Source of the DNA: Microglena sp. YARC
Lineage: Eukaryota; Chlorophyta; Chlorophyceae; Chlamydomonadales; Chlamydomonadaceae
Assembly: GCA_022414725.1 (NCBI GenBank)
Contig: CM039464.1
Location: forward strand, 46,509,481 to 46,573,480
Direction of reading: 5' to 3'
Length of the DNA: 64,000 nucleotides
Shown here: positions 1 to 60,990 of the stretch, one piece after another
Layout of the letters: each line of letters begins with the position of its first letter
How positions within the stretch are numbered: position 1 is the first letter of the stretch
Program-made: the position numbers and the translations under genes
Notes under the pieces: generated by a model
The model's database searches: none
What the model was told of the DNA's origin: nothing
What the model saw: only the letters and a program-made list of their open reading frames with translations

Positions 1-560
1 AGGCTAAAGTTACCATTTACACACAATATCATGTGATGCAATGTGTATGATATTGTATGATATCATACTGGCCTTTGGTCAGAATCATATGATTTGCGGA
101 TCCCTACTTATGCAACATGAACGCCAACCACATGGCACTGACCAAGGATGGTTAACGAGATTGGATCAAGTATATTTTTGATCACAATGCTTAGATTTTG
201 ATTGTGTATGATTATATTTTGGATCACAATGCTTAGATTTTGATTGTGTATAATCATGGTAATGATGATATTGTCTGGTAACTGCTTTTCCTGCCGAAGA
301 CAGCGAGCAGCCACATTTATGGCTGGAGCCATGTAACCTAGGTGAAGTTTGGTACCAACCTTAGGCTTCTTGTGTCTCACGGCTTGTGCTAGTAGGCGGT
401 CAACCACTTCGTAACTAAGGATTTTAGAAACTGGATCAAGTCTATGTAGATCCGAATGCTTTCTATATTACTGGTGACTGCTTTTATTGCCGACGAGAAG
501 GTGGCAAGCAGCCACATTGCTGGGTGGAGCCATGTAACAAAGATCAAGTTTGGTACTAAC
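1..560 (-). repeat. Intron 15 of TOG gene: exon-edge copy, dispersed repeats, MITE end
   Basis: Positions 1-108 are one arm of an AT-rich hAT-like MITE (ends in tcccta). Positions 278-350 and 476-550 are two copies of the gcagccaaattgctggctgg family (R3). About 270-415 is a diverged duplicate of 470-610, so it carries a copy of the exon 15 donor edge (ggtaccaaccttaggcttct against ggtactaaccttggggttct). Confidence 0.7.
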
Positions 561-785
561 CTTGGGGTTCTTGTGTCCCACAGCCTTCTTGTGCAATAAT
601 GCGGCCAACCACTTGGGCCCATGAGCATCACTGATGGACAGGAGAGCCTCTGAGGACGGCCCCTTGAGCTTCATGTCTGACAGCTTCTCGGTCAATGCAT
701 CAAGGGCAGAGAATGCATCTCGCTTCGAGAAGCTGGGGGCAGTATCAGCCGCAATCTTGACCACTTCAAACATCTTCGCCATCAC
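561..785 (-). CDS. MOR1: TOG gene exon 15 (TOG3, last exon in window)
   Basis: It encodes [19 protein letters not shown] through [12 protein letters not shown] to [10 protein letters not shown], matching FSEAVGPGFVF and YKIMKEHKNPK of MOR1 TOG3. The acceptor is cctgcag, the donor gttagt, phase 0. The next exon lies beyond the left edge. The donor side is copied at about 350-415, the acceptor side at about 945-975. Confidence 0.92.
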
Positions 786-2631
786 CTGCAGGATGGTTAT
801 GTCAGGTTGGGTTTTGTTATGTTTGTTTTATGTTATGTCTGTGTTGTGAAATTATGGTAAAAAAGAACGCCTGGGGGGGCGTGATGTTAAGGGGACCCTC
901 CTATACGCCGCAGCTGGGGAAAGTCACCATGGCAGGCACAACATCTCCGCCATGACCTGCAGGCTGGTAATGTGAAGCTAGGTTATGTTAAGTCAGGTCT
1001 GTTAAATGTTATGTTATGCATGTGTTGTATAATTATGCTACGTTATGTAATTACGGTATGTTATGTTATGTTATGTCTGTTATATTATGTTGCATTCCAG
1101 GAGGTAGCCAATTATGCTGTAGGGACTTGTCCAACCTCAAATAATCAAGCTAACCCTAGACCATCCAGAGGGGCTACAATAAAGGGTGTGTTGGTGTCCC
1201 CAATATGTCAAGTTCCAGAAGTAATGAGGTACACAAATGAATATTAGTAAGAGCTGCCACAGGACGTGAGATTGAGGCAAGGTCCAGAGGTAATGAGGTA
1301 CAAAAAGGACAAGTTCTAAGAGGTGTCGCAAGCGACTCGGAATATCGCTATAGCAGTCACCGGCAGGGAGTTTCGGAAGTAGTGGAGTAAGTACATCTGA
1401 GCTTGGACTACCGCGCAACAGCAGGTAGTGAGGTATACATGTCCACCCACCCCTCCAAGACAGATGGGATAGCTTTTTTTGTTTACATTCCATTCTTCTT
1501 GTTTGTGATGGTCATACGCCTAGGGACCAGCATATCATATGATGCTGACCAGAGGCGAGTATGATATCATACAAATTGCATCAAATGATATTGTATATAA
1601 ATGGTAACTTTAGCCTAGACGGCTAAGCCGTCTTACCAGAATCTTGAATATATTTGAGAAAATCATATTATTGTGACACTAAAATAAGATTAGTTCAAAA
1701 CAGTTTTTGGCGGAGCCCCCTCTTCAGGGGGGCGGTAGTCCCCATGTTTACCCATTTGTCCGTCCGACCATCCATCCATCTGACTGTGATGAAGCCCGAC
1801 ACGCCAGCCAACGGTCTCGGAACTAACTGGCTTCCGTTGCCACCTGTCGCTCCATCGCGACCACTCTCCGCCATTTTTGGGCGTCGCAGGCAACGCTGCA
1901 TAGAACTTGTCAGAAAATAGTATTAGATGCCTTTTGCCGTTCCCTAGTCATATGCCCCCCTTGACTTTGTTAAGCAGCAAGCATATTTGCAGCCAAGTAG
2001 GCGTCAATTAAAAGTAGCCAGAATGACCATCCTCATCATAATTGTCCGCATCGTTATCGTTGCACTCATTATCATCATTACTATACTCATCAGAATCATT
2101 ATCCTCATCATTATCGTTATACTCATCCTCATCATCATTATACTCATCATTATCACTATGCTCAGGATCACCATTATCCGTATCGTTATCCTCACCACCA
2201 CCATCATGATTATCAAGTAGCAAGTATCCGTTATTGCGCTCGCGAAACAACTGACCTGGCAAATTCGCAAAGCAACTGACCTGGAAATTCTTGTCGCTCC
2301 AACCAGGCATGTGCTGAAGTCCTTGCACCAGCAAGGAGCTCTGTTGCGACACCACCTCAAGGTCTCTTGCTTTGCCCACCACTTGCTCCATGGCACCTAG
2401 CCTCACCTGGTCAAGTAGGAATATATTGGGTTGGATTGGGTTAGGTTAGGTTGGGTTGATGATGGGGGGGGGGGGGGGGGGGGGGGGGGGAACGGCTAGT
2501 CTGACATCTGAAATTGTTGCGACAGTACCTAAAGGTCTCTTGCTTTGCCCACCACTTGCTCCATGGCACCTTGCCACACCTGGTCAAATAGGAATATATT
2601 GGGTTGGATTGGGTTAGGTTGGGTTGATGAT

Positions 2632-5600: not shown

Positions 5601-8600
5601 ATATGTTGTTTGTTATAAGTACATGTATATATGTTGTATGGTATATGTACATAACATACCGGTATATACATACCCAACCCCCAACCCCACACAAAGTGTG
5701 CTGTATCAGTCAAATACATGTCAAAACACGTATTAAAACAGCCAAACACCTGTCAAAACAGCCTAACACCTGCCAAACACCTGTCGAAACAGCTTAACAC
5801 CTGCCAAACGCCTGTCAAAACAGCCTAACACCTGCCAAACACCTGTCAAAACAGCCTAACACATGTAAAACGCCTGTCAAAACAGCCAAAGATATGTTGA
5901 AACAGTGAAATTCTCAACCCCCAACCCCACACAAACTGACCCGTGCGAGGGCGTGGGCGGGACATGGAGGCTGCCAGTCCCCTGGGACTGGAGCTTTTGA
6001 CAATCGACGACTGGTACACTGGTACAGCTAGCCCAGCAGGGGGTCCACCACCCCCTCCTCCTCCTCCTCCTCCTCCAGTGCCTCCTGGAGACAACTGGGA
6101 GATAACCAACTCCTCCATCTTCTTCTTGCGCCCTTCATCCATCTTGGTGGTGTACTTGTCCAGAATAGCAGGTTTGCCCACCTGCAGGATTGGATTGTTA
6201 CATGTTAGTACTTATCAAGAATAGCGAATTTTCCCACCTGCAGGATTGGATTGTTACATGTTTGTACTTATCAAGAATAGCGGATTTTCCCACCTGCAGG
6301 ATTGGATTGTTACATGTTTGTACTTCTCAAGAATAGCAGGTTTGCCCACCTGCAGGATTGGATTGTTACATGTTTGTACTTATCAAGAATAGCAGGTTCC
6401 TACCTGCAGAATTGGATTGTTACATGTTTGTACTTATCAAGAATAGCAGGTTTGCCTACCTGCAGGATTGGATTGTTACATGTTTGGGTGGGTGTGGGTG
6501 TGGGTGAGTGGGTTGCTGTGAAAGAGTGCACTATGTCTGCTGGCAACTTCCCATTGGAGGTGTAGGCTGCCAGAGTGGTTTCAGGCGCATCCCCCAACAA
6601 GAACGATTCAGATCAAACCAGCTGACCTTAACAGCAAAAGCCACCAAGAAACTCATAGTCCAGTTCTAAGTTGACTTGTGTGTCATGGGGGCAGCTGCCA
6701 CTACTGATGATCAGGTCCAAATACTACTGTCAGTACCGATTACCAGGTTCAATTACTACTAGTCAACAGGATATCAAGGCATGCCAGGACAACCGACCTT
6801 CACGGCGAAAGCCATCAGAAACTCATTGCTGCCTCACGTGCGGACGGGGCGGCATAGTCCAGTTATAAGCTGCCTTGTGTGTTGTGGGGACAGCTAGCAC
6901 TACTGATTATCAGGTCCAAATACTACCAGTCAATAGGACGCCAAGGATTGCCAGGACAACTGACCTTCACAGCGAAAGCCACCAAAAAGCTCATTGCTGC
7001 CTCGCGTGTAGAAGGGGCTGCATCCTCCGCGCACTTAGCGGCGGCAGGGAGGAGGGCGGGTGCAAGCTTGGCTAGTCCTTCCTTCTCCTTCTCTACGCCG
7101 ACCTCAATAGCAAGCCAAGCCAAGGTCTCCTCTCGTACCTTGGGAGTCACATGGCCCATGGCACCTGGAAGGGTTTGTGTGTGGGTTTGTGTGTGGGTTT
7201 GTGTGTGGGTTTGTGTGTGGGGTGGGGTGGGTGGGTGGGTGGGTGGCTGTGTGTGTGTGTGGGGGGGGGGGGGGGGGGGGGGGCATGTGTTCGTAGTTAT
7301 GAGTGTTTGTGTGCGTGTTTGTGAGTTTGCGCAAGTGTGAGTTTGTAAGTGTTTCCTTTAAAATGTATGCATGTTGGCAAGTGTGTGTGTACGTGTGAGG
7401 GGTCTGGCCAGTCAATCAGATCAGTTAACTGAATAACAGGAAACACTCTTTCCACAGCCTTACCTGAAAAATCTTCCGCTACGTCTGACAGGACCCAGCA
7501 GTGCTTGTGCATGATGGTCAGAGCCTCCGCTAAGGCTTTTGTAACGCCAACGTTCTTTTCCTTAAACTTTTCCAGCAGCACTGTCACAACATTCTGCAGG
7601 AGTGAGGGGTCGAATGCATGTTGGTGGTGATGATGATGGTGATGGTGGTGATGTTGATGAGGTTGGTGGTGATGATGATGATGATGATGAGGAGGAGGTT
7701 GGTGATGATGGTGATGGTACTGGTGATGATGATGATAATGATGATGATGGGGGGGGTGATGATGAAAATGTGAGGGGTTGATTGGGTTCAAGGCACATTG
7801 AAACAGGGTTATAAGCTAAGTCAGGGTATGAGATGGGACGAACCTAGTGGGAGTGAGGGTTTGATTGGGGTGACGCATACTGAAACAGGGTTATAAGCTA
7901 AGTCAAAGTAACTTATAAGCGAAGTCAAAGGAATGGGGCAGTGCTGGAAGGAGCGAAGGGGGTGCTTGGGTTGATGCATATTTTTTTTTCTTTTTTTTTA
8001 CTTATTATTTACTTAGCGGATAACCCTAAACAGGAATATCCGCTAAGTGACCGGAGCTAAGACCAATCAAAAACCCCAGCGTTAGCCAATGTTTCTTTTG
8101 GGGGCTACCTGTAGCAGCTTCTACACTTCTACTTCTATACTTCTACTTCTACACTTATACTTCTTCTTTCAGCTTCGGCAGTTCCCTTTCCTAGGGCCAA
8201 GCCTGAAACTTACCATTGTATGTAAAAGCTTACATGGCAGGCATTCCTGTGCAGCTGCAAGCTTTGGGTTCGACCCAGTGGCTGAAGCTGCCATGAATAA
8301 GCCAACAAATTAAAAATGGTGTTGACCCTAGACCCAAGAATATAAAAGAAACAAACAGAAAATGTACAGAATGTAACAGTTGTGTTGACTGAGGACCCAA
8401 GAAAATAAACAAAAAATAACAGTGGTGTTGACCCTAGACCCAAGAATATAACCCAAAATACACAGAACGTAACAGGGGTGTTGACCCTAGACCCAAGAAT
8501 ATAACAGAAAATACGCAGAACGTAACAGTGGTGTTGACCCAAGACCCAAGAAATGAACTGAAAATTAACCGAAAATAACAGTGGTGTTGACCCTAGACCC

Positions 8601-10816
8601 AAGAATATAACAGAAATTACAGTGGTATTGACCCAAGACACAAGAAATTAAACAGAAATAAACAGAAAATAAAGCAAAAATAACAGTGGTATTGACCCAA
8701 GACCCAAGAATATAACAGAAACAAACAGAAAATAACAGTGGTGTTGACCCAATATCCAAGAAAATAAACAAAAATAACAATGGTGATAACCCATGACTCT
8801 AGACCCAATTAAAAAGCGCAGAATGTGAGTTCACCTTGGCAGTTGCTGAGTATCCGTTTCGCAGTCCCTTAGCAAGGGCACCATAGCAATTGGCGGCCTC
8901 GGCAACGCACATCACATTAGCATCCTTGGCGATGCACTTGCGCAGCTCACGGTTGACGTCTCCGTAGTCAAATTCCCTACGTGTGTGTGTGTTGTGTGTG
9001 TGTGTGTTGAATGTGTGTGTTGTGCGTTTGTGTGTTGTGTGAGTGTGAGTGTGTGTTGGGGGGGGGGGGGGGGGGATGATGTGGTGATGCATCCTTGGCG
9101 ATGCACTTGCGCAGCTCACGGTTGACGTCGCCGTAGTCAAATTCCCTATGTGTGTGTGGTGTGTGTGTGTGTGTTGAATGTGTGTGTTGTGCGTGTGTGT
9201 GTTGTGTGAGAGTGAGTGTGTGTTGGGGGGGGGGGAGGGGGGGGATGATGATGTGGTGGTGATGATGTGGTGATGCATCCTTGGCGATGCACTTGCGCAG
9301 CTCACGGTTGACGTCTCCGTAGTCAAATTCCCAACGTGTGGGTGTGGGTGTGGGTTGTGTGGGTGTGGGTTGTGTGGGTGGGTGTTGTGTTGTGTGGGGG
9401 GGGATGATGTGGTGGTGGTGGTGATGATGTGGTGATGCATCCTTGGCGATGCACTTGCCTAGCTCCCTGTTGGCATCTCTGTAGTCGTACTCCCTTCGTG
9501 TGTGTGTGTTGTGTAGGGAGTTTTGTGTGTGGAGGGTGGTGTGTGGGGGTGGGGGGGGGGGGTGGGGGGGGATGAGGTGGTAGTGATGAGGTGGTGATGC
9601 ACTTGCCTAGCTCCCTGTTGACATCTCCGTAGTCGCACTCCCTTCGTGTGTGTGTGTTGTGTAGGGAGTTTTGTGTGTGGAGGGTGGTGTGTGGGGGTGG
9701 GGCGGGGTGGGGGGGATGAGGTGGTGGTGATGAGGTGGTGATGCACTTGCCTAGCTCCCTGTTGACATCTCCGTAGTCGTACTCCCTTCGTGTGTGTGTG
9801 TTGTGTAGGGAGTTTTGTGTGTGGAGGGTGGTGTGTGGGGGTGTGTGGGGGGGGTGTGGGGGGGGGGGGGATGAGGTGGTGGTGATGAGGTGGTGATGCA
9901 CTTGCCTAGCTCCCTGTTGACATCTCCGTAGTCGTACTCCCTTCGTGTGTGTGTGTTGTGTAGGGAGTTTTGTGTGTGGTGGGTGGTGTGTGTGTGGTGT
10001 GTGTGTGTGTGTGTGTGTGTGTGGTGGTGGTGGTGGGGGGGGGGGGGATGATGAGGTGGTGGTGATGAGGTGGTGATGCACTTGCCCAGCTCCCTGTTGA
10101 CATCTTCATGGTCGTACTCCCTTTGTGAGTGTGTGTTGTGTAGGGTGTTTTGTGTGTGGGGGGGGGGGGGGATGATGAGGAGGGGGGATGATGAGGAGGG
10201 GGGATGAGGTGGTAATGCATATGCGGGGACGCACTTGCGCAGCTCCCTGTTGACATCTACGTAGTCATATTCCCTATATGTGTTTGTGGGTGTGTTGTCT
10301 TGGTGTGGGGGGGGGTGCGGGGGGTGATGGTATGCTGGTGGTGATGCTGATGAGGTGGTGGTGTTGAGGTGGTGGTGATGCTGATGCTGTGGTGGTGGTG
10401 ATGTGGTGCTGGTGATGAGGTGGTGATGATGATGTGATACAACGACGCGGCGCACTTGCGCAGCTCCCTGTTGACGTCTCGGTTGTCTAATCCTCTACAC
10501 CCCAGCAGACATGAAGAATTGGAATTTGGATTGTTACATGGTTTTCCATCCAACTATAGGCAGCTCCACGCCTTCCAATTCCAATTCCAGACATAAAGAG
10601 TGGGTCAACATTGGTGGTGGTGGTGATGGTGGTGATGATGGTGATGATGGTGGTGATGATGGTGATGGTTGTGGTGATTGTGTTTGTGGTGATGGTGGTG
10701 GTGCTGATGGTAATGCTAATGATGATGGTGATGCAGATGGTGTTGGATGTGCGAATGGTGTTGGTGTTGGTGAAAGTGCTGCTGCTGATGGATGGTGGTG
10801 GTGCTGAAGATAGTGG

Positions 10817-10872
<56 letters not shown>

Positions 10873-13800
10873 GTGGTGGCGGTGCTGGTGGCCGCTATTA
10901 TACAGCAAGGTAATGGAAGATAAATATAATAATGACCACCGGGTCTGTGCACCCTCCAGCCGCTAGGCGTGGGTAGGGGGCCCTTGGCGTGGGTAGGGGG
11001 GCCCTTGGCGTGGGCAGTTGGCCGTTGCTTTGAGCTGAGTAAGAGAGGCTTTGCGTTCACTCCACCTCTTGGACTCCAAATGTCACTATTTCATCATTCA
11101 GAAAGATTCGTGGAGGTAAATATCATAATGACTGCAGCATTGTACAGCGAGACACGTGGATGTTGATATAATAACAACTACAAAAGTATGCATCAAATTA
11201 TGTGGAGGCAAATAAAATAACGACAACAAAAGTGTGCATCAAATTATGTTCAGGTAAATATAATATCGACTACAACAGTAGACATCAAGTTGTGTGAAGG
11301 TACATATGATAACGGCTACAGCATTGTGCAGCATTGTGCGGCATTGTGCGGCATTGTGCAGCATTGTGCAGCAAGAAACTTGAACATGAAGGTAAACGTA
11401 ATAACGACCCCAAGGTCTCGCACCTTCCAGCCGCGAGGCGTGGGTAGGTGGCCGCTTCTTTGAGCTGAGTGAGAGAGGCTTTGCGTTCGCTCCACTTCTT
11501 AGACTCCAAACCCTCCCAGAACTCCTTCTTCAGGCCTGGCAGGATGTCCTTAGGATCCGCAAACTCGTAGGGGTCCACCTGGGAGATGGTGTGCGGTGTG
11601 TGTGTGTGTGGTGGTGGTGTGTGTGTGTAGAGTGTGTGTGTAGAGTGTGTGTGTGTGGTGGGGGGGTGGGTAGGGGGTGGGGGGGTCACACACCAACATG
11701 GTGGGGGGGTGGGGGGGGGTGGGGTCACACACCAGACAAACATATGTCTTGTACCCCCTATGGCCCCTCATGCCCCCCATGCAACTCTGCACACCACCTC
11801 CATGTCCCCGCCACCTTGTCTTTCCCCCATCCTTACCCCACGTGAGCTCACCTGTGCCGGATGTCGACCCTCACATCGAGCGTGACTCAAGCGTGACAGG
11901 ACACAACGATGTATGTCCAGTCACGCTGACGAAGAGACCTGAACCTCGACCCAAACCCTAGACTCCGGGATGATGTAAGGAGTATATAGGTTCGGACCTA
12001 GAGACTCCAAGGCAGCCAACATCGGGGATCGTACCCTCGTCATCCTGTAACTTTGTATTCAAGCTAAGACGTATTCTATACGTTACATCACCTCCTCCTG
12101 AGGCTCCTGATTCCCCTCTCCGCCCCCTTCAGCATCAGCATCTGCCATGTCAAAATCCGCTCTATCCCACCCATCCGCCACCGCCCCAAATCTGCCCCAT
12201 CCAATTCGACCTCACCTCCTCCAGCACCTCCTCCTGAGGCTCCCGATCCCCTTCTCTGCCCCCATCAGCATCAGCATCTGCCATCTTCCCCCCCACCGCT
12301 CCTTTCCTCTCCCATCTCTTTACCCATCCCACTCAACCACCTCCTGATCCCCTTATCCGCCCCCATCAGCATCAGCATCTGCCATCTTCTCCCCCATCGC
12401 TGCTTTCCTCTCACCTTTCTTTACCTATCCCACTCGACCACACCTCCTCATCCTCCTCTCTGCCTCCATCAGCATCAACATCCCCCATGCCCATATCCGC
12501 CCCCATCCTACCCATCCACCACCGCTCCAAATCCGCCCCATCATATTTGACCTTACCTCCTCCTGTACCTCCTCCTGAGGCTCCTAATTCCCCTCTCCGC
12601 CCCCTTCAGCATCAACATTCCCCATCTCCAAATATCCTCCCCACTTCTGCCCCATCCCACCCATCCGCCACCGCCCAAAATCCGCCCTATCCCATTCCAC
12701 CTCACCTCCTCCTGAGGCTCCTGACCCTCCTCTCCGCCCCCATCAGCATCAACATCCCCCATGCCTATATCCACCCCATCCCACCCATTCGCCACAGCCC
12801 CAAATCTGCCCCATCCAGTTCGACCTCACCTCCTCCAGCACCTCCTCCTGAGGCTCCTGATCCCCCTCTCCGCCCCCATCAGCATCAACAACCCCCAAGT
12901 CCACATCACCCCCACTTCTGCCCCATCCCACCCATTCGCCACCGCCCAAAATCCGCCCTATCCCAATCCACCTCACCTCCTCCTGCACCTCCTCCTGAGG
13001 CTCCTGACCCTCCTCTCCGCCCCCATCAGCATCAACATCCCACATGCCCATATCCGCCCCATCCGCCCCATCCCCCACCGCCCTAAATCCGCTCTATCCA
13101 ACCAATCCGCAACTGCCCTAAATCCGCCCCATCCCATTCGACCTCACCTCCTCCTGAGGCTCCTGATCCCCTTCTGCGTCCCCATCAGCATCAACATCCC
13201 CCAAGTCCACATTCCCCCACTTCTGCCCCATCCCAACCACCCGCCACCGCCCCAAATCCGCCCCATCCCATTCAACCTCACCTCTTCCTGCACCTCCTCC
13301 TGAGGCTCCTGATCCCCTTCTGCGTCCCCATCAGCATCAGCATCCCCCATGTCCACATCAGCCCCACTCGCGCTTTCCGCAGCCAGACGGGCAGCTTCCT
13401 TCCTAGTCACCCGTTGGGGCTGGGGCCTGGGGCCAGCTACCTCCGTCATGCCACGCTCGATGTCGTCTTTCATGGCGTCCCTCATGGTCTTAGCAGTGAA
13501 TGCGGTACCGCGGATGAGGTCAGGTCCCACCCAGCGTGACATCTCCACCTGGCAGGACAAAAGCGGTACGTTAAAGGAGGCTGGCTTCTCAAACATTGTT
13601 GGCATCAAAACAGTGACACAAGGACGGAATACATGATGTGTGTGTATGGGGGGCGGGGGCAGGGGAGAGGGGGGGGGGGGGGGGGGGGTATACATTGCCT
13701 CGAACCGTTGGATGATACGGCGGCGGTGGAGGTGGTGGTGGTGTGGGATGTGTGTGTGTGTGTGTGTATGTGTGTGTGTGTATGGGAGGCGGGGGGGGGG

Positions 13801-16800: not shown

Positions 16801-17004
16801 ACCCACACACAACCCCCTCACCCAACCACACACCCACACACTAAATCAAAATATAGGTTGGTGAGATACCTGAACAGCTGGAGCACGGCTTCCAAACATG
16901 CAACTACTACTTTGGGGATCTTGTGAACGAAGCCCTCCACCAACGCAGACTGTAGGGGTGAAAGCACACAGGTATGGGTATGTCAGGCAGGGCTTTGCTT
17001 ACGT

Positions 17005-25909: not shown

Positions 25910-26515
25910 CTAGAAAACAAAATTCAATTACGCGCGACCTCTGTAGGTCCACCGTCCAGTCAATGGAGGTAGTAGTGGTTCTTGTTCTAAAAGGACACCG
26001 CTGCTCCAGCTAGACAACATAATTCAATCACTCCTGACCTCTGTAGGTCCACCCTCCAGTCCCTGGAGGTTGCAGTGGTTTTTTGTACTGAAGGTCTCGG
26101 CTGCTCCGAGTGGGAAACACAAGCCGATTGCATATGACTTCTGTAGGTCTACCGACCGGTCACTGGAAGTAGTAGAGGTTGTTGTTCTCATGGACCGCCG
26201 ATGCTTGGGTTGGGAAACACAATCCAATTGCACATGGCCACAATAGATCTACCCACCAGTCACTTTAAGCACTAGTGGTTGTTCTCAAGGACCGCTGTTG
26301 CTTCAAGTTGGCAACAAAGTTCAATTGCAAATGGCTTCTATAGATTCAGGCTCAATTCACTGGTGGTAGTAGTATTTGTTGTATTCGAAGGGCATGGCTG
26401 CACCAACTGGAGCATCCACCCAGATCTTCCCGGACTGCTTCACTTGCTTGGCCAGTAAATGCCTCTGCCCACTAACCTCAATGACGTCTCCCCTGAGCAG
26501 TGCCTATACGCTTCT
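25910..26515. repeat. Tandem copies of the 3' end of the gene at 26523
   Basis: 26350-26515 is a close copy of the last ~150 nt of the exon at 26523-26777 (gttgtattcgaagggcatgg, tgcttcacttgcttggccag). 25910-26345 holds about four more decayed copies, about 125 bp each, keeping ggtagtagtggttgttgttc. Only the copy at 26523 has the full open frame. Confidence 0.85.
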
Positions 26516-26522
26516 GCTCAAT

Positions 26523-26777: not shown

Positions 26778-26944
26778 CTGCGTGAGGTAACGTGGTTTCA
26801 AAGGTCAGTCAGTCATATGATTATTATTATGATTATGGTCTCTCTGGTGGCAAGGTGCACTGTTTCTTTACAGTCCTGTGTTTGCTCAAAGCTGAAGGGC
26901 ACTCCAACATGAGCACGTGGTGAGATTGGTACATATCACATATG

Positions 26945-27105
26945 TGCAGTGCAGTTGTGCATGGTATGTGTACATGTAGGGTGCATGTGTGCATGGCATG
27001 TGCTCGTGATGCATGTGTGCGGTACATGTGTGCATGGCATGTACACGTGGTGCATGTGTGCATGGCATGTGCACGTGGTGCATGTGTGCGGTACATGTGT
27101 CACTT
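26945..27105. repeat. GTGCATGTGTGCATGGCATG minisatellite
   Basis: About seven alternating units of catgtgtgcatggcatgtgc and acgtggtgcatgtgtgcggt. Frames open on both strands are repeat derived. Confidence 0.85.
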
Positions 27106-41957: not shown

Positions 41958-42094
41958 TCAATGCATTCTCTGGTAGAACAGCAGGTACGGCTTTTCAGAA
42001 AGTACAGTGTCCTTGGAAACAACCTCAACAGCAGCATCATTAAAGTGAAGCCATTGGCCATTGTGTTGCACCGCATCCGCCGTGTAGTGGCCAC
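41958..42094 (-). CDS. USP10: USP exon 6 (catalytic His box, stop)
   Basis: It encodes GHYTADAVQHNGQWLHFNDA through EKPYLLFYQRMH and TGA (41958-41960). The acceptor is tgtgcag. The LLFYQR ending is the usual close of USP catalytic domains, so nothing follows the domain. Acceptor-edge copies are near 42322 and 43150. No clear polyadenylation signal was identified. Confidence 0.93.
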
Positions 42095-48000: not shown

Positions 48001-51000
48001 CGCCTTGGCTCGCACCACCTCCACTCCTTCGCTGCTGCAGCGGGGGGTTCTCAGGTCGTCCGTATTGATGACGCTGGCCTGCGTTGTCTCCAGTTCCCCG
48101 TCTCCCACCACGCTGTTGGGGATCCTGCTGCTTGAACTGCTTGCGCTGATGATGCTGGTTCTGTACTGCTGGTGGTGGCTGCTTCTTTGCAGGCTTTGCT
48201 GCTGCTACGACTGTCCACCCGTCATCTGGATCAGCCGCTGGTGTCGTTGCTGGTGGTGCCGTTGCTGTTGCTGGTAAAGCTGCTGGTGCCGTTGCCGGTA
48301 AAGCTGCTGGTGCTTCACTAGCGGCTTGAGGGGCAGTTTTTGGAGTGGGAGCTGCTGCCTGAGGTGCAGAGCTGGAGGGTGCGGGTGTGCTAAGCTTGGG
48401 CGTCGCAGCTGCAGTGCTGCTGCTTTCATCTGGTGCGCCATGTGCACGGATCTGAGCAGGCTTTGATTGTGCAGGATGGCTCTGCAGCTGCTGTTGTTGC
48501 TGAGCCACTTGTTGCTGCAGCTGCTGTGCCTGTGGCTGCAGCTGCTGTGGTTGTTGCTGCCGTTGCTGCTGAGCAACTCCTTGCGAAGGTTGAAGCACCT
48601 TCGGTTGCCACGGGGCTGCAGGCGCTCCAGCGCCCCGTTTGTTGTCTTCTCCACTTCGAGATCTAGATTGCAGGGGGGTTCCGGGGGACAAAGGAGGGTT
48701 TCCTACTGCAGGCGATGCAGGAGTTCTCTGCTGATGTAGTGCTGCAGTACCATGTTGAGCCGCTGTAGCTCTATGTGCTGCTGTAACTGCTTCAGACGCT
48801 CTCGTCGCCCAGGATATAGGCTTGTCAGGGGGGGCGGCCTTCTTGGGTGGGGTCATGGCTGGAGATAGTTGGTTGGATGCATCTGTGTTTGCCTGGGGGG
48901 CTGGACACACAGGACTAGCAGAGGCCTGATCTTTGGACTCGGCTTCTAAAGGTTGAGGAGTGAGTTCAACTTCGATCACAGTTGCCGACTGGGGATCAGC
49001 GGGAGACTTCTGGGCTGGTGAAGTATGAGTAACGCCCATGCTCTCTGTTGCTGGAGCTGCATGCCCTAAACCTTCAGGTATGGAAGGATAAGGCTGCTCT
49101 GACTGATCCAGCTGCTTAGTTATTTGCACACTGACGTTGGGAGTAGCTACCTCGGGTGCTTTGCTGGGTTCACTCGTGGGCGTCGTGCCGACGTCAGTTG
49201 TGGGTGCAGAAGAGGCAATTAAGAGCTCAGTAGCAGCTTGACCTGGTATTTGCGTCATAGCTGGCTCAGGTCGGGCTACGGTGCCCTGCTGGGAGTTGAT
49301 AGAAGCCTGCGGCTGCTGACAGGGAAATCCTGGTGCAGCCTTGCTACCCTGAGGAGGGGAGGCCATTGGGCCGGCTGGCACTCTTGATGGCTGTGATGAT
49401 GATGCTCCCCTGCCAGCAAATTTAGCAGCTGTACCTCCATTTGCAGCCCACACGTTGGCAGGCCTGGCCAGAACAAAGGCAGAGTGAGGGGACGTACGGA
49501 CATGGCATGCATACAAGAATCCCCAATTCAATAAGTGTGTGTGCCTGAGCCTTTGTAGCTTGAATGCGCGTTTGCAACAGTCCAGTGGTAGCCAAATAGG
49601 ATAGAGGGACTCGTCCTATCTCGAACAATCAAGATCACCTCTAGATAACCAGGAGGGAAAGAAACACTCTAAGATATGGTACCTTGCACAGCATCACCTG
49701 TTTCAGTAAGCCAACCTGCAAACTGGTGTACAAAGATTCATGAATATAATGGCATTTGTTACGATGTAATCTTAGGGAGCAATTCGCAGTCTAACACCGA
49801 GGTTATTTTAATAGAAGTAAAGGCGGAAGTGTTTTGAATTTCACTTGCCTTCATCGCACCTCACCCGTCAGAATACAGATTTATAGAGGACGAAGTTGGA
49901 CCAGGGTGAACCGTGCAAGCGTCTTGGGCGGATTTTGTATCTTGCCTGATTGTATCTTGCCAATACAGTTCAGGTCAACCTACATACAACTACATATCCT
50001 CATAAGGGGGTCCAGCCTAGTTTTCAATTATTGAGCAGGACTTCCTGGCTTGATCACACTATCACAGTGTGACCCAAAACAATCATTGGGCAACCATGGG
50101 TTAAAGAACACAAACACACCTGTCAGCAGGTGCACTTGCGATTGAGTGGGCAGCGATGAGTGAAAGTACACTAACACACCTGTCCAGGGGGTGCGCCCGG
50201 GATTGAGTGTGCAACCGTGAATAAAAGAACACGAACACACCTGTCAGGGGGTGCGCTTGCGATTGAGGCAAAGCTCTTGGAATCTGTAGGCTCTGCTGCA
50301 GGAACAACAGCCTCTGCAGGACTCCCCTCCCCCAAGTCTGTCATGCTGCTTGCACCTGGAGCATGTGATTGGTGCACTCTAGGCTGTGGGTGCAGACCCC
50401 TCGTTGGGGATGAGGCGGAGGGTGCAGTGTCTGCAGGACTGGGCGCCGCCACTCCAGCCGCTGAAAATACTGCTAGTTCAGTAGGCCCCTGTGTGGGGGG
50501 GGTTACATTGCAATCCACCCCTGATGCTGCTGAAGGCGCTGCAGTGGTCTGCGGCTGGATGGTTTTAATAGGACCAGGTGCATTGGTAGCTGTGTGCTCC
50601 CTCTCAGCAGCTGGCGTAGGGCTAGAAATGGATGGGCTGGATGTACGTGCTGACAAATGCAAGCTTGACTTCTGAGCCACAGTTTTCCCGATGTTTTGCA
50701 TGATACCGGAGGGCTGGGGTGTTGTTGCCTCAACGGCAGGTTCCGAGGTTGCTGGGGGTGGAGTGGTCCCCGTGGCTACTGGGCTAGACGAGGTTGAACC
50801 TTTCAACCTATTTGCTAGGCTGCCTGCCGCCGCACCCCAAACAGGCGTTCGGGGCTTGGCGCTCTCACCCACTGCAACCTCTGGAGAGTCTGCATATGAG
50901 GTAAGGGAGGGGGTGACAGTCTGGGGAGGCAGATCATCCACAGCTTTCTCTTCCTGAACCAATCCTGGTGATGGCTGGCCCGAAAATTCCTTCCGTCCAG

Positions 51001-51406
51001 GAGCAGTCGCCGCAACAGACCTGGGACCCGCCCCATGCTGTTGATGCTGACGGGGCGCCTGGGTGTGACTATCGTGGCTGTGGCTACTATCAGCATCTAA
51101 GTGCTGCCGAGGTCGGCTGTTCCGATGCCGTTGTCGCACATAATCGGTGCCTCTGTGTTGGTCTGTGGGTCTAGCTGGATGGCGGCCATCTGGAGTGTTC
51201 GGACCGCCGCTTCCTGGCTGCCCCCCAGAAGGCCTATGCTGCCCAGCCCCTACTCCCCCACCATCCCGGTTTGTTGGGCGCGGTCCTTCGCGTCTTCTGT
51301 CTCCGTTCCCCGATCTAGAGCTATCTGTGCGTCTCCATGTATCGGCTGAATCTGCTTTTGAGTCTAGTTCTTGAATCACCCGCTCCTGTGCACGAGGGAA
51401 ATGCAT
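41958..51406 (-). CDS. USP10: USP10/Ubp3-type ubiquitin carboxyl-terminal hydrolase (complete, six exons)
   Basis: A cysteine protease of the USP family that removes ubiquitin from proteins. Exons (minus, 5' to 3'): 50241-51406, 46478-49463, 45776-45986, 44775-44943, 44156-44247, 41958-42094. All are GT-AG and the frame holds at all five junctions, giving about 1586 residues. Cys box GFTNTGNSCFVNSTLQALL has C1111; QEDAQEFFQFIVDSAHEEL follows; the His box GGHYTADAV has H1544 and the third catalytic residue is in WLHFND (N1560 or D1561). The order EEEWSQVGKKNKSAVTRQ, then IFRGSLRSTVRAPGSKPSAT and EVLVLHISRF, is characteristic of USP10. The first ~1100 residues are Pro/Ser/Ala/Gln-rich with no domain I recognise; USP10 is about 800 residues, so this extension is long. 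Start choice (51406) is the first Met after upstream stops and is not certain. Confidence 0.9.
42119..44110. repeat. USP intron 5: two 0.9-kb tandem units plus a partial third
   Basis: Unit 1 (about 42119-43070) and unit 2 (about 43074-43950) share, in order: exon 6 acceptor-edge copy, R2 pieces, a GAATGAATGCAT microsatellite, ccatactaattgccacaac-like DNA, a hAT-like MITE, and gcaacttgatgaaacttg. A third partial unit begins at about 43952 and runs toward exon 5. The MITE is inside both full units, so it inserted before the duplication. Confidence 0.85.
42874..43004. mobile_element. hAT-like MITE (unit 1 copy)
   Basis: It runs from TAGGGGTCGGC to CTTCTCCCTA with a tatgatatcatatg core. The flanks gctatgat (42866-42873) and gctctgat (43005-43012) match at 7 of 8 positions. 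The unit 2 counterpart (about 43688-43888) has lost its left terminal repeat and gained tcatacactttccatcat repeats, but keeps the right end ccctagcgatgat. Confidence 0.82.
44156..44247 (-). CDS. USP10: USP exon 5
   Basis: It encodes PVLSEDCPDCRGVAEFRLVA and TVSHHGRNAAG, matching YRLFAVVYHHGNSATG of USP10. The acceptor is tgtgcag, the donor gtgcgt, and both phases fit their neighbours exactly. A donor-edge copy lies at about 44044-44085. Confidence 0.9.
44420..44700. repeat. Donor-edge copies of USP exon 4
   Basis: Four copies of ggactcacttgcgcaggcgc plus agtgtgaagtc, near 44425, 44495, 44580 and 44668, spaced 70-90 bp, precede the true edge at 44767-44800. Spacers are tatctatatgac repeats. 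Confidence 0.9.
44775..44943 (-). CDS. USP10: USP exon 4
   Basis: It encodes FKAEGASTATRAQKGVAL, then LPEVLVLHISRFEYRSSG and IHKPIDFDFTLRLRK (USP10: LPPVLVLHLKRFVYEKTG). Phase selects the acceptor ggcacag at 44944 over an upstream ctag. The donor is gtgagt, phase 2. Four donor-edge copies lie downstream at 44420-44700. Confidence 0.9.
44996..45380. repeat. 66-bp minisatellite in USP intron 3
   Basis: About six units of ggtgaatttggcaaaagagg and caagaaggggtgaaattggc. The Pro/Leu/Ser frame on the minus strand is repeat derived and is not joined to exon 4, because the phase does not fit. Confidence 0.88.
45776..45986 (-). CDS. USP10: USP exon 3
   Basis: It encodes VGGSQAQDPSHCQSR, then VSTIFRGSLRSTVRAPGS and ATIQPFTMLHLDILPVHV, matching IFGGHIRSVV and SATLQPFFTLQLDI of USP10. 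The acceptor is cgtcag and the donor gtaagt, ending in phase 1. A donor-edge copy lies at about 45672-45698. Confidence 0.92.
46010..46110. repeat. 16-bp minisatellite in USP intron 2
   Basis: Units of agtgggaagtgggtg, about six copies, ending close to the exon 3 acceptor. Confidence 0.85.
46215..46400. repeat. Dispersed repeat R8 (GCGTCGCA-rich)
   Basis: It contains gcgtcgccatagtgcg, gtgcgtcgcactggggtcgc and tgagtcattgaatttgcgtc. Related sequences are at 53740-54680 (tandem) and 57815-57990, where gattgagcgactcggtgtg is shared. The ends are followed by acaaaacagt. Class unknown. Confidence 0.6.
46478..49463 (-). CDS. USP10: USP exon 2 (2986 nt, Q-rich region and Cys box)
   Basis: By far the longest exon in the window. 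The acceptor is ctggccag, the donor gtgaga, phase 0. It contains a Gln-rich stretch (about 48470-48600), long Pro/Ala/Ser tracts, then the catalytic Cys codon at 47297-47299 in NTGNSCF and the QEDAQEFF motif near 46635. It ends ...KSAVTRQ, the USP10 signature before the central catalytic segment. Confidence 0.9.
50100..50215. repeat. Donor-edge copies of USP exon 1
   Basis: Two units of about 62 bp (cacacctgtcagcaggtgca near 50115 and acacctgtccagggggtgcg near 50177) copy the exon 1 end and donor; the true one is at 50235-50270. 49640-50090 holds no supported feature. Confidence 0.88.
50241..51406 (-). CDS. USP10: USP exon 1 (low-complexity N terminus)
   Basis: The ATG at 51404-51406 opens MHFPRAQERVIQELDSKADS, then Arg/Gly/Asp-rich and Pro/Thr/Ser-rich sequence to SKSFASIASAPPDR. 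A possible acceptor (gtgcacag) lies just inside the ORF at about 51390, so a further 5' exon cannot be excluded. The donor is gtgtgt, phase 2. Two donor-edge copies lie at about 50118-50215. Confidence 0.75.
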
Positions 51407-56649: not shown

Positions 56650-57661
56650 TAGATAGATAGATGAATAGATAGAGAGAATAGATAGATAATATAGATAGAT
56701 AGATAGACTGACATATATTAATACTAAAAAAGCTAAAGGGACTTGCCCAACCGTGCTTGGAAGGGCTAAAAAGTAAAGCATTGATAACTGAACCCCAAAC
56801 AATCGATTTTCCGATGAGGGCCCTGAGTTCGTGCTACAGTGATCATTCAATTCCACGACGTCCATGTGTACCACATCTTGCAGTAGGAAGAAAGGCCTGC
56901 TCTTGAGGGCAAAAAATAAAAAGGTAAACAAGCAGAACTTGACCTTGCAGGCAGAACCATTGCACCATTGCTGGAAGAACCATGGATCCATTGCACCCTT
57001 GACCTTGCAGGCAGACTGGTGTCACATGTTTTAGGAAGATGTGTGGGAAGATGTTTTTTACAATCATCACAGAAGAGGAATTTCAAACAGGGTTTTTGTT
57101 AAGTGTGATTTATAGCTATTCAGCGGATGATTTGGGTTCAAGGTTTCTGAAGATCCCAGACTTCGTGCATGACATCGATAATTTGGCCTGGAAATCTGAG
57201 AATTCTCGCGAGAATTCTCGATAATTGGCCTGAGATTCTGAGAACCAAGTCCGCAGTACAAAGTGTGCTTCCCAAATCATCCCCTGAATTGCTTTAAGTA
57301 CCACATCTCTCAGGAGGGAGAAGGGCCTGCTCTAGACTGATATGCAATACAGTAAATCAGTATTCTACACGTGTCTGACTCACTCGACCTCTGTCACCAT
57401 GTGTACCACACCTCGCAGTGGGAAGAAGGGCCTGCTCTTGAGCGAGACCAGGCTGCTAAGCAAGCTGAGCTGGCAGCTGCTGAGCTTGCCAAGCTGTCAC
57501 GTCGCATGGCTCAGCACAAGGCTGCCAAGGGCAGGCGTGGCTCACTGGATACAGGTGACTGGTGGTTACCTTTTTGTGTGTGGTATTGTGTGTGTGTGTG
57601 TGTATGCAATGCGTCACAAATTGATACAGGTGACTGGTGGTTACCTTTTTGTGTGTGGTAT

Positions 57662-57700
<39 letters not shown>

Positions 57701-59677
57701 GTGCGTGTGTGTGTGTGTGTGTGCTTGCGTGCGTGCGTGCTTGCGTGCGTGTGTGTGTGTGTGTGTGCAACGCAGAACAAATTGATACAGGTGACTGGTG
57801 GTAACCTTTTTCATGTGCGCAAAGCGTCGCAAATTGCTTGGTAACCTTTTTGTGCGTGGGTCGCGTGGTAACCGTTTTGTGTGTGCAACACGTCGCTAAT
57901 TGAGCGACTCAATGCGTCCTCAGTGCGTTGCACTCCCCCCAAACCCAGAGGATTCGTGCGGAGCACAAGCACGGAGCCCGGGGAGGTTTGGGGCATTTCC
58001 GGCTTGTTCATCCATCTGACGACAAATAAATACATGCATATATAAAAAACAAAAATGGTACGTCTTATTTCGAGGTTTCAGGTCGAGGGGGCCAGCCCGT
58101 TTGCTTGCACTGGTGCCAACCACCAATCTGGGGACAACTTTCTTGTTTGCATGCTTTGGGGCAAGGCACTTGTTTCCTCTTTTTCTTTTCTTTTCACGTT
58201 TATATTTTCTGGTAAAATTATGTTTACCCCCGAAGACGGCGTGCAGCCAAATTGCTGGCAGGAGCGATGTAACCAAGTTCAAGTTCAAGTTTGGGCAAGA
58301 CATATTTTTAGGCTAGAGCATATCCCTTAGCTGTTATTGTCTTCCTCTGTCTTTTTTCCTTGGTCACAAAGGGCTAGGTTTGATCAGATGCGCCCTTTCC
58401 TGGTCCCGCCCCTTGTAACAAAACTAAGTTCTATGCAGGGTTGCAAGCGACGCTACAAATTGGCGGAGAGTGTTCGTAACGGAGCGACAGGCTTCGTCTC
58501 GGTCAGACAAACGGACAAATGGGTAACCCTGGGGAATAGGGGGCTCCCCCCCAAAAACTGTGCGACACAACTGACGTATTTGTAATCTATTTCTTTTGGG
58601 GGCTACACATGGCAGCTTCCAGCCAGCTCCAGTAGCCAGACACTGAGTAAAGACAAAAGCTTTCAGCTGCATTGGAATTCCCGTCATGCCGACTTTCAGA
58701 GTGTGCGACCCAGGTGCGACCCAAGTGCGACCCAGGGCACAAATCACTCACTCGCGGCCGCACATCGTGGTGACCAAGGGCTCATTTCGCCCTAAACTCG
58801 CACACCTGAGGGTCGCACAGGGGTCGCACCTGGGTCGCACAATGTTCGACTGGTCGCACACAAAATAACTGTTTCAGGCACACTAGCTGACTTCTGGTTT
58901 GGCCCTAGGACAGGGAAAGAGAGCTGCCTAGAAGCTGCCACAAGTATCCCCAAAAGGAAACTGCCTTGTTATAATCTATTTCAATTTGCCCCTTCTGCTC
59001 ATCTGGAGTTAATCTGAACTGTTTGATGTTGTTGGGTTGGGTTGGTTGGGTTGGGTTGGGTTGGGTTGGGTTGGGTTGGGTTGGGTTTGGGTTGGGTTTG
59101 GGTTGGGTTGGGTTGGGTTGGGTAGGGTTGGGTTGGGTTGGGTTGGGTTGGTTGGGTTGGGTTGGGTTGGGTTGTTGGTTGGGTAAGTTGTCCTTGTCTT
59201 GGCTTGGCTTGGCTTGGCTTGGCTTGGCTTGGGCAAATCCCTGTAGCTACAGCCTCTTTGGCTACCCCTAGAGGAGCTAAAACGAAAAGAAGCTGATGAA
59301 CTGAACCCCAAGCAATCGTTTTACCGACGGAGGACCTGAGTTTGTGCTACAGTGAGTATTTAATTTTCCATGCATTCTGACGATGTATAGAAAGAAAACA
59401 GAAAAAGAATAAAAAATCACGTTTACATTTTCCCTGTGATTTTTTTGTTTTTACTGCCTTCGACGGCGAACAGCCAAATCGCTGGCTGTAACCATGTAAC
59501 CAAATTCGAGTTCAAGCTCTGACAGTGCGCCCACCTTTCCCTCCAACTCAGCCTATGGTGCAGGTGGGCAGTCTGGAAGCATCTGGAGTCCCTTTCGCTA
59601 CATGGTTCAGCAACTAACCTCCTTCCTGCTCAACAGACTGCTGCTCACAGTGAGCAACGTGCATGTCATGTTTAAAG
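52059..59677 (+). CDS. VPS13: VPS13-type protein, first five exons (chorein_N domain)
   Basis: VPS13 proteins are long rod-like bridges that carry lipids between membranes at contact sites; the chorein N terminus caps the lipid groove. Exons: 52059-52152, 53598-53701, 56487-56573, 57419-57554, 59552-59677, GT-AG with consistent phases, 182 codons. The protein starts [20 protein letters not shown], then [56 protein letters not shown], an Ala/Glu/Lys helix and [17 protein letters not shown]. This is the family order LWGG, LKNLELKPEAL, LPFxVxxGxIGKLxLxIPW, SDVxL and the NVHI segment. Full VPS13 exceeds 3000 residues; nothing beyond exon 5 could be placed in the window, so the gene must continue to the right or through the C-rich region. 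ATG2-like proteins also have chorein_N but fit less well. Confidence 0.85.
52555..52960. repeat. ACACACAACAAAC microsatellite with a duplicated block and poly-C
   Basis: The block ccaccaagcaccctgccatgagtgacagcaataagata occurs twice (52525-52558 and 52670-52703) with CACA DNA between. A pure C run covers 52862-52893. All in VPS13 intron 1. Confidence 0.9.
53052..53246. mobile_element. hAT-like MITE with perfect 8-bp target duplication
   Basis: It starts TAGGGGTCGGC and ends GCCGTTCCCTA. The flanks 53044-53051 and 53247-53254 are both cttatatc. The core has ataatattatataat and tcggacaagccgtttcacca. Confidence 0.92.
53288..53474. mobile_element. hAT-like MITE, inverted copy, perfect 8-bp target duplication
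   Basis: The same family as 53052-53246 but reversed: it starts TAGTGAACGGCAA and ends GCCAACCCCTA. The flanks 53280-53287 and 53475-53482 are both catacaat. It lies 41 bp from its neighbour. Confidence 0.92.
53598..53701 (+). CDS. VPS13: VPS13 exon 2
   Basis: The acceptor is ttgagcag, the donor gtgggt, phase 0. It encodes [20 protein letters not shown] and [15 protein letters not shown], the strongest chorein_N match. Confidence 0.9.
53702..54600. repeat. 121-bp tandem array at the VPS13 exon 2 donor
   Basis: Seven units (actgcc at 53768, 53889, 54010, 54131, 54253, 54405, 54539) contain gtttcactggcttgttttgt, gagcgactcggtgtgacccc and gcggagcttggggggtttgg. The intron start gtgggtttcactggcttg is reproduced near each unit start, but no exon sequence is. 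It is related to repeat R8. Confidence 0.92.
54881..55238. repeat. (TGGA)n tetranucleotide array, about 350 bp
   Basis: A near-perfect ggat run with short ggac blocks at 55083-55145 and taatgga interruptions near the end. All three plus-strand frames are open because the unit has no stop; not coding. Confidence 0.97.
55240..56200. repeat. About 54-58 bp minisatellite, 17 or so units
   Basis: The unit is built of tctaatggggatcttctgga, cgttgtgctctaatgcgggt and cttttatatgtagtgc. It fills VPS13 intron 2 upstream of exon 3. Confidence 0.92.
56487..56573 (+). CDS. VPS13: VPS13 exon 3
   Basis: The acceptor is ctctttcag, the donor gtgaga, phase 0 at both ends. It encodes [20 protein letters not shown] and CTTSREDDE. 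Confidence 0.9.
56588..56708. repeat. GATA microsatellite
   Basis: gatagatagata with a few interruptions, at the start of VPS13 intron 3. Confidence 0.95.
56855..57340. repeat. Acceptor-edge copies of VPS13 exon 4
   Basis: Copies of gtgtaccacacctcgcagtg plus ggaagaagggcctgctcttgag occur at about 56867-56910 and, more decayed, 57299-57335. The true edge is at 57400-57445. Also in this intron is an exact 22-bp palindrome (see findings). Confidence 0.88.
57419..57554 (+). CDS. VPS13: VPS13 exon 4
   Basis: The acceptor is cctcgcag, the donor gtgact, phase 1. It encodes [20 protein letters not shown] and a basic helix to RRGSLDTG, like the WDEEAEERRxLAAKxAxL segment of VPS13. Two acceptor copies (56860-56910, 57295-57335) and two donor copies (near 57622 and 57783) flank it. 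Confidence 0.88.
57600..57990. repeat. Donor-edge copies of VPS13 exon 4, TG run and an R8 unit
   Basis: gatacaggtgactggtggtt recurs near 57622 and 57783 (true donor at 57555). 57660-57765 is a TG/TGCG microsatellite. 57815-57990 resembles the R8 array at 53702-54600 (gagcgactcaatgcgtcctc, cggagcacaagcacggagc). Confidence 0.85.
58195..58292 (+). repeat. Dispersed repeat R3
   Basis: It carries gtttatattttctggtaaaa, ccgaagacggcgtgcagcca and accaagttcaagttcaagtt. Intact length about 98 bp. Confidence 0.75.
58425..58560 (-). repeat. Dispersed repeat R4, internally deleted
   Basis: From gttctatgcagggttgcaag to gggctcccccccaaaaactg. About 75 bp shorter than the others, lacking the gttagttacgaggccgttgg middle. 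Confidence 0.75.
58594..58975. mobile_element. TIR element R5 with nested inverted repeat
   Basis: The left end tttcttttgggggctacacatggcagctt and right end agaagctgccacaagtatccccaaaaggaaa form a terminal inverted repeat. 58694-58863 is an insertion made of gtgcgacccaggtgcgaccc on the left and gggtcgcacctgggtcgcac on the right. No coding capacity. Confidence 0.8.
59035..59220. repeat. TTGGG and CTTGG microsatellites
   Basis: 59035-59175 is ggttgggttgggttg with length variants; 59195-59230 is a ttggc pentamer run. The frames are repeat derived. Confidence 0.95.
59419..59517 (+). repeat. Dispersed repeat R3
   Basis: It carries cgtttacattttccctgtga, gacggcgaacagccaaatcg and ccatgtaaccaaattcgagt. 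It ends about 35 bp before the preferred VPS13 exon 5 acceptor. Confidence 0.75.
59552..59677 (+). CDS. VPS13: VPS13 exon 5
   Basis: It encodes [20 protein letters not shown] and [13 protein letters not shown], matching the SFLxxLxTRIxxNxQVxIxNVHI segment. Two in-phase acceptors are possible, ccaactcag (59551, preferred) or gtgcag (59563), differing by four residues. The donor is gtagga, phase 1. The donor edge is copied about nine times downstream. Confidence 0.85.
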
Positions 59678-59689
59678 GTAGGAAAGATG

Positions 59690-60990
59690 TAGGACTGACT
59701 AAAACCATGTGCTTTTTTCCCCCCCATCCTCCCCCCCCCTACCCCCCCCCTACACACTTACCCTCTACCTCCTAACCCGGCCTGCTGCTCACAGTGAGCA
59801 ATGTGCATGTCCTCTTTAAGGTAGGAAAGATGTAGACTGGACTATACCATGTGCTTTTCCCCCCCCCCATGGCCTCCCCCCCCCCCCTACACCTTACCGC
59901 CTCTACCTCCTAACCCGGCCTGCTGCTCACGAGTGAGCAATGTGCATGTCCTCTTTAAGGTAGGAAAGATGTAGACTGACAAACCATGTGCTTTTCCCCC
60001 CCTCCCCCCCCCTACACGCTTACCCTCTACCACCTAGCCCGGCCTGCTGCTCACAGTGAGCAATGTGCATATCCTCTTTAAGGTAGGAAAGATGTAGACT
60101 GACAAACCATGTGCTTTTCCCCCCCCCCCCTCCCCCCCCTACACTTACCCTCTACCTCCTAGCCCGGCCTGCTGCTCACAGTGAGCAATGTGCATAATCC
60201 TCTTTAAGGTAGGAAAGATGATTAGACTGACTAACCATGTGCTTTCCCCCCCATCCCTCCCGCCCCCCCCCCCCCCCCCCCCCCCCCTACACCTCACCAG
60301 CTACCTCCTAGCCCGGCCTGCTGCTCACAGTGAGCAACAGGTGTGCATGTCATGTTTTAAGGTAGGAAAGATGTAAGACTGACGAACCAATGTGGCTTTT
60401 CCCTACACTCCATCCTGGAGTATCGAACCCCCCCCACACCTCCCGTACCCTAAACCCCCTGCCTCCTAACCGCCTACCCCTAACTAGCCCCAAACCTGTT
60501 AGCGAGAACAGACTGCTGCATGCTAGCTGTGAGGCAATGTCGCACATGTCCCTGTTGAAGGTAGGAGCCAGTCCCCTCCACCCACCCCTCCCGCCCCCCT
60601 ACTCCACCAACCCCAACCTGTTAGCAACAGACTGCTGCTTAGCTGTGAGCATGCGCACATGTCCTGTTGAAGGTAGGAAACGACCGTCCCCTCCCCACCC
60701 CTCCCCCCACCCACCCCAACACCACACACACCCTAACGCCCGTAACGACCCCAACCTGTTAGCCAACAGATTTTACAGTGCTGCTAGCTGTGAGCAATTG
60801 CGCCTATGCCCTGTTGAAGTAGGAAGCCGTCCCTGATCCTCCCCTCGCTTCCTCCCCCCTCCCCCACACACACACCTCCTCCCCCTAACTCCCTCTCCTT
60901 CTAACCCCGACACCGTACCCCCAAACTGCTAGTAACAGACTGCACTCACAGTGAGCAACGTGCATGTCCTGTTCAATGGTATAAGGAGCG
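59690..60990. repeat. Donor-edge array of VPS13 exon 5 (about nine copies)
   Basis: Copies of ctgctgctcacagtgagcaa, tgtgcatgtcctctttaag and gtaggaaagatgtagactga lie near 59785, 59922, 60042, 60165, 60318, 60510, 60625, 60770 and 60935, about 120-150 bp apart. Most keep the GTAGG donor. Spacers are C-rich, with C runs of 8-20 nt. Copies decay with distance from the exon. Confidence 0.93.

Follow-up and report, generated by a model that had tools for sequence, protein, structure and literature searches.

The question raised by this locus is why its introns carry, in tandem, copies of their own exon edges together with the splice sites. The window, i.e., the whole stretch of 64,000 nucleotides analysed here, lies on contig C3 of the Microglena sp. 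YARC assembly (C3:46509481-46573480; 568 Mb in 2390 contigs) and contains three genes, referred to as TOG, USP and VPS13-like. A preliminary description had reported tandem units straddling exon edges in all three genes, and had attributed them either to a recurrent mechanism that duplicates DNA across exon/intron boundaries or to tolerance of such duplications. We observed these units at the ten edges tested, and they are best read as a very dense new occurrence of the arrays known as mirages in amphioxus, representing the edge-crossing share of an intronic tandem duplication that is tolerated by splicing. According to the explanation that we favour, with a probability of about 0.7, tandem duplication acts within introns and crosses their edges about as often as it affects their interiors; the spare splice sites likely persist because the copy joined to the complete exon would remain the one that is spliced.

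For this analysis, the 19 window introns with both ends placed were supplemented by 50 from other parts of the genome, all of them in dynein heavy-chain genes (11 loci), giving a sample of 69 introns in 14 genes. Edge rates, arrays, GT retention and matches between genes were assessed on all 69 introns, and the tests of decay, exon interiors and stretch density on 61. Each junction was represented by a 30-nt probe centred on the exon/intron boundary, which was sought ungapped in its own intron, and matches of at least 24/30 were counted as copies. In the window, 10/19 donors and 4/19 acceptors had such a copy. At least one was present in 12/19 introns, so that copies are indeed widespread but the earlier wording of “nearly every intron” was an overstatement. 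Across the sample, copies were found at 37/69 donors and 22/69 acceptors; either edge was copied in 48 introns, both edges in 11 and neither in 21. Edge copies occurred in 12/14 genes located on four contigs (C1, C2, C3 and C5), and the two genes lacking them (L049 and L051) have one intron each. Under eight probe settings, between 40 and 50 of the 69 introns were positive.

These matches are beyond chance. Markov shuffles of the window junctions (20 per junction) never scored above 21/30, and in the first dynein set 0/340 shuffles reached the threshold. When junction probes were compared with one randomly drawn intron from another gene, 0/1380 matched, and because of this the edge copies look like local duplications rather than dispersed elements. 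The same comparison, which covered junctions rather than interiors, argues against introner elements, in which similar sequence is common to introns of different genes. A whole-genome search with the Pfam AAA_6 profile, independent of our gene models, also showed exon ends repeated downstream: the exon at C1:61043188-61043517 (profile positions 1-110) is followed by seven matches of profile positions ~63-108 alone. The median extension of the copied segment into the exon was 42 nt. At 59 edges, the spacing between the functional junction and its nearest copy ranged from 56 to 342 bp (quartiles 121, 157 and 188 bp, the median being 157), values close to nucleosome or Okazaki-fragment size. Nothing pointed to a role of the spare sites as frame-preserving alternatives, as this spacing showed no clear bias modulo 3 (remainders 0/1/2: 14/13/10 for donors, 8/5/9 for acceptors). 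In dynein locus L046, the donor edge of a predicted GC-AG intron (3927-5569) was copied ten times.

The comparison of edges with interiors bears most directly on the origin of these copies. Non-simple 30-mers from intron interiors were copied within their own intron in 46.5% of 5270 cases (mean per intron 43.7% over 69 introns), and edges overall in 43%, compared with 44-47% for interiors. The 95% bootstrap interval over introns for the edge-minus-interior rate was -0.08 to +0.06 for all edges, -0.01 to +0.21 for donors (54% against a mean interior rate of 44%) and -0.23 to -0.01 for acceptors. In the interiors of 14 window exons, only 8/432 probes were locally copied. Edges thus behave as intron DNA and exon interiors differ, which fits free intronic duplication with removal of exon-damaging events. 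The tolerance proposed in the preliminary description, whereby the spliced product stays unchanged, agrees with these rates. Its argument that such regular straddling of junctions is not to be expected from slippage is not supported, since the copying rate at edges did not exceed that of intron interiors, and a mechanism aimed recurrently at boundaries is unsupported at base level. Neither are edge-crossing duplications the only ones kept: among 126 arrays detected in the 69 introns, 59 were wholly interior, 42 donor-anchored, 25 acceptor-anchored and none anchored at both edges.

Donors and acceptors differed in how often they were copied. Introns with a single copied edge comprised 26 with the donor only and 11 with the acceptor only (p = 0.020), and the excess of donors over acceptors recurred over eight probe settings (p from 0.003 to 0.090). 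We infer that an additional donor lying downstream of the functional one would do harm less often than an additional AG lying upstream of the functional acceptor. Most copies retained the splice dinucleotide (GT in 101/104 donor copies, AG in 48/53 acceptor copies). The preliminary description had stated that copies decay with distance from the functional edge. Among copies scoring at least 24/30, to which this test was limited, the nearest and farthest were equally similar to that edge, both in 12 donor arrays with at least three copies (27.2 and 27.6 of 30, p = 0.51) and in six such acceptor arrays (27.0 and 26.7 of 30, p = 1.0).

In the favoured explanation, each event would be an ordinary minisatellite-type duplication of roughly 60-340 bp, produced by slippage, flap-mediated copying or unequal exchange. 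Duplications that damage an exon would be purged, whereas those crossing an edge would be tolerated, since the exon remains intact and retains its own splice site. Copies of a donor come to lie downstream of the real donor, which is transcribed first. Copies of an acceptor come to lie on its upstream side, so that a spare AG could be encountered before the real one, and duplications of acceptors would for this reason be removed more often. Through repeated tolerated duplications, introns would grow.

Several observations weigh against this explanation, and we considered them together with its rivals. The tolerance of spare sites by the spliceosome is inferred from sequence alone, and a single gene family supplies 50/69 introns. 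The 42 donor-anchored arrays exceed the 23.4 arrays per edge expected from one random-placement model, and donors may therefore be favoured and not merely tolerated; this expectation shifts according to the ancestral intron length that is assumed, and it was not used as proof. Of the probes in five window stretches that contain no placed exon of the three genes, 13, 14, 57, 16 and 0% were locally copied, compared with 44% in window introns (the stretch at 0.9-5.5k, with 27%, belongs to the TOG gene and was excluded). Introns are thus denser in local copies than four of the five stretches and may be more than unprotected. Together with the donor rate, which stands above the interior mean, these two observations would also suit a dedicated duplication process at exon/intron boundaries, coupled for example to transcription or splicing. 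However, pooled edges were copied at the interior rate, acceptors fell below it, and wholly interior arrays were common. The functional copy is conserved, which makes edges easier to detect, and the longer units of edge-anchored arrays (median 153 bp, against 107 bp for interior arrays) are what random placement predicts. We rejected boundary-targeted duplication as the main account because the edge rate equals the interior rate, and consider such a process unlikely.

The state of the spare donors is also unlike pure neutrality, as their GT was identical in a proportion of 0.994, compared with 0.889 for generic intronic GTs (p = 5e-5). This, the copy-to-copy identity of GT relative to its flanks (0.981 against 0.897 in 22 arrays, p = 7e-4), the predominance of donors and the plain count for AGGT-context GTs elsewhere in introns (150/183 copies retained) would be expected if extra splice sites were kept by selection, for instance as additional U1 docking sites. 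The excess was borderline when spare GTs were compared with intronic GTs in a GGT context (p = 0.009, 0.073 and 0.046 at three thresholds) and was not significant per intron against those in an AGGT context (p = 0.81, 0.38 and 0.58). Acceptor AGs showed no clear copy-to-copy excess (p = 0.17), 21/69 introns have no edge copy, and a constrained master that repeatedly seeds copies would by itself lower GT divergence. The spare donor GTs are not eroded, but because their excess is borderline against GGT contexts and gone against AGGT contexts, we do not claim selection on them and regard it as a rather improbable cause. Long tandem arrays are error-prone and a single assembly was used, so that artefacts also had to be considered. 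The copies differ among themselves, their spacings vary between introns, the arrays recur in genes on four contigs, and window exon interiors are spared, a distinction that assembly error would not respect; this explanation is very unlikely. The least probable alternative, which we judge to be remote, is that the introns themselves arose when exon segments bearing AGGT were duplicated in tandem. The Rogers model of intron gain requires both intron edges to derive from the same duplicated segment. A one-step intron would thus have both edges within one duplication, and we rejected this origin as 0/126 detected arrays were anchored at both edges, a test that would miss old, decayed events. Tandem exon-end copies do exist, and a similar route was proposed by the authors of the amphioxus work (PMC3087553).

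The contribution of the arrays to intron length was substantial. Introns with edge copies had a median length of 995 nt and those without 756 nt (p = 0.022), although longer introns give more room for matches. When each of the 126 arrays was collapsed to one unit, the summed length of the 69 introns fell by 46%, from 78,084 nt to 42,236 nt. Tandem duplication is thereby a concrete and testable cause of long introns in this one genome. Core-Reinhardtinia, comprising Chlamydomonas and close relatives, have conspicuously long introns, whose advantage was called unknown and whose driver was considered probably ancient by the authors of a comparative study (PMC8226300); our analysis does not assume that this alga belongs to that group. 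A more speculative and doubtful proposal is a ratchet in which exon edges serve as protected seeds: selection would guard the functional donor, duplication would re-seed its copies, and the intact 5' splice sites thus retained might act as extra U1 sites that stabilise the first, exon-attached donor; such a process would set the long introns of these algae.

Similar arrays were previously described as “mirage” minisatellites in amphioxus, where tandem duplications cross exon-intron boundaries in Adh3 and in the globin genes BflGb6 and BflGb9 (PMC3087553). That report describes 5' and 3' boundaries, units of 10-72 and 150-160 bp (about 150-160 bp in the globins), reverse-transcription PCR (RT-PCR) results suggesting normal splicing, retention of AG or GT in many but not all copies, and length instability, with repeat number varying among haplotypes or within the soma (PMC3087553). 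Related repeats in lancelet PGBD5 were compared with mirages (PMC3902484). The Microglena arrays share with mirages the boundary-spanning tandem copies (here in 48/69 introns), the involvement of both boundary types (37/69 donors and 22/69 acceptors, with both in 11 introns), minisatellite-sized units, although the spacing range of 56-342 bp exceeds the reported sizes, and the retention of the splice site in most copies (GT in 101/104, AG in 48/53). With respect to concerted evolution, another mirage trait, the observation made here is that nearest and farthest donor copies score alike (27.2 and 27.6 of 30). In contrast with the gene-by-gene reports in amphioxus, about 70% of sampled introns are concerned here, from DNA alone, and base rates, the donor/acceptor asymmetry and the share of intron length were measured.

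Two further systems are relevant. In Chlamydomonas and Volvox, repeat density is highest in introns, GT/AC motifs occur and the repeats are concentrated toward intron ends, but exon crossing and copied splice sites as found here are not described in the portion of that account available (PMC3887541). In potato, a boundary-crossing tandem duplication produced a new intron (PMC4974935), whereas here existing introns lengthen and no array spans both edges. No report of mirages in an alga was found in the open-licence literature searched, itself accessible in part. What is new is the asymmetry between donors and acceptors, the array density (46% of intron length) and, within these limits, the occurrence in an alga. 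Should the rate found in this sample apply to the whole genome, the arrays would constitute many natural tests of splice-site choice, in which near-identical donors or acceptors stand side by side and position is the main difference. The asymmetry is expected if the first transcribed donor and the first AG met are preferred. The spare exon ends could also mislead gene predictors and RNA-seq aligners.

The window introns were placed by several means. For USP, the predicted protein P0001 joins the exon-attached splice sites at all six introns. The TOG gene is XMAP215/ch-TOG-like, is encoded on the minus strand and extends past the left end of the window. The TOG and VPS13-like (plus strand) models were built from reading frames, GT-AG ends and likeness to human sequences, with some exon ends adjusted by eye. 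The VPS13 label is based on our own reading and a low-scoring alignment to a human sequence; a whole-genome search with the VPS13_N profile gave one match, located outside the window. In a Pfam scan of ten window open reading frames, the UCH domain alone scored above the cut-off. The 19 counted introns leave out, for VPS13, those flanking exon 3 and the one that follows exon 5, and, for TOG, the intron after exon 11 and two probable micro-exons (introns 1 and 8).

The dynein heavy-chain sample consisted of 13 loci in 10-kb stretches. Two of its exons had chains of PDB entry 8glv, the Chlamydomonas axoneme, as best matches. For four of the 13 stretches (L043, L044, L047 and L052), the closest among 120 listed proteins were mostly green algal (74-85% identity); for other stretches, fungal, plant or animal sequences ranked first among those listed. 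Introns were placed with two independent kinds of reference, namely a paralogue from this genome, with 12 loci in the alignment and 34/122 candidate introns passing the identity and adjacency filters, and homologues of other species, with 35/113 passing in a set that excluded L054 and the stretch formed by joining L040-L042. The two placements agreed on 27 identical introns with no conflicts, and their union was used; L052 and L055 together gave 16 introns.

In the window, ten edges were re-examined with a stricter 36-nt probe, counting copies beyond the functional edge that scored above the maximum of 50 shuffles. Tandem Repeats Finder (TRF) gave 262 rows for the window, and the array rows cited here come from 150 of these. 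The features are as follows.

41961..51406, minus strand: USP gene, 7 exons and 6 GT-AG introns; EukProt protein P0001 matched exactly by spliced alignment.
14377..14903, minus strand: TOG exon 5 donor array, 99-bp unit, functional donor 14870/14871; TRF 5.4 copies, 93%; four junction copies at +99, +198, +297 and +396 (exact 99-bp spacing).
6151..6486, minus strand: TOG exon 11 acceptor array, 56-bp unit, functional acceptor 6181/6182; TRF 6.0 copies; four junction copies.
8920..10506, minus strand: TOG exon 8 acceptor array, units of ~148-155 bp with (CA)n, AG and the exon 8 start; seven copies at 24/30, nine by the 36-nt probe; TRF rows 8920-10058, 9444-9992 and 9673-10275.
12239..13281, minus strand: TOG exon 6 donor array, five copies (30-nt probe) or six (36-nt probe); TRF 12769-13366, period 147.
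18199..19524, minus strand: TOG exon 3 acceptor array, seven copies; TRF periods 122-235 bp.
16639..16886, minus strand: TOG exon 4 donor array, 79-bp unit (TRF), three copies, the best 30/30.
17881..18135, minus strand: TOG exon 3 donor copies, offsets +162 and +234.
15053..15347, minus strand: TOG exon 5 acceptor region, 137-bp unit, one junction copy.
6797..6964, minus strand: TOG exon 10 donor, one copy at +167.
19971..20380, minus strand: unit enclosing the whole of TOG exon 2, 157 bp, ~2.7 copies (TRF).
50119..50240, minus strand: USP exon 1 donor, one copy at +121.
45686..45775, minus strand: USP exon 4 donor, one copy at +89.
44433..44774, minus strand: USP exon 5 donor, copies at +187 and +341.
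44053..44155, minus strand: USP exon 6 donor, one copy at +102.
56872..57338, plus strand: VPS13 exon 4 acceptor, two copies (36-nt probe); outside the 69 counted introns.
57555..57803, plus strand: VPS13 exon 4 donor, one copy at 24/30, two by the 36-nt probe.
59680..60990, plus strand: VPS13 exon 5 donor array, three copies above shuffle level; outside the 69 counted introns.

The copy numbers given in the preliminary description fared unevenly against the 36-nt probe. At TOG exon 5 donor (five exact units and one decayed had been counted) and exon 11 acceptor (six units), four copies each lie beyond the functional edge. The large arrays at TOG exon 8 and exon 3 acceptors are present with nine and seven copies, where about ten and eight had been estimated, and copies were confirmed at both edges of VPS13 exon 4, with two at the acceptor and two at the donor, where three each had been given. 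The arrays at TOG exon 6 donor and VPS13 exon 5 donor exist but had both been put at about ten copies, whereas we count six and three, respectively. For USP, single copies were found at exon 4 donor, in place of five, and at exon 1 donor, in place of three.

Each edge of TOG exon 2 has one copy, located outside its own intron. The downstream copy of this exon is open in frame, and the two may represent an exon duplication, perhaps with mutually exclusive use. Window introns contain abundant (GT)n/(CA)n as well as G- or C-runs, and in acceptor arrays such as that of TOG exon 8 the microsatellite belongs to the unit, immediately upstream of the AG. In TOG intron 4, a stretch at 15711-15800 (minus strand) contains GGTTCGAATCC, presumably a tRNA T-arm-like motif; ARAGORN identified no tRNA in the window. 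Between TOG and USP, positions 27246-27386 (plus strand) gave a 5.8S rRNA-like match of 46.8 bits (cut-off 42). Because no further Rfam family was detected at an E-value of 0.01 in 26000-32000, this match is probably a diverged or isolated copy.

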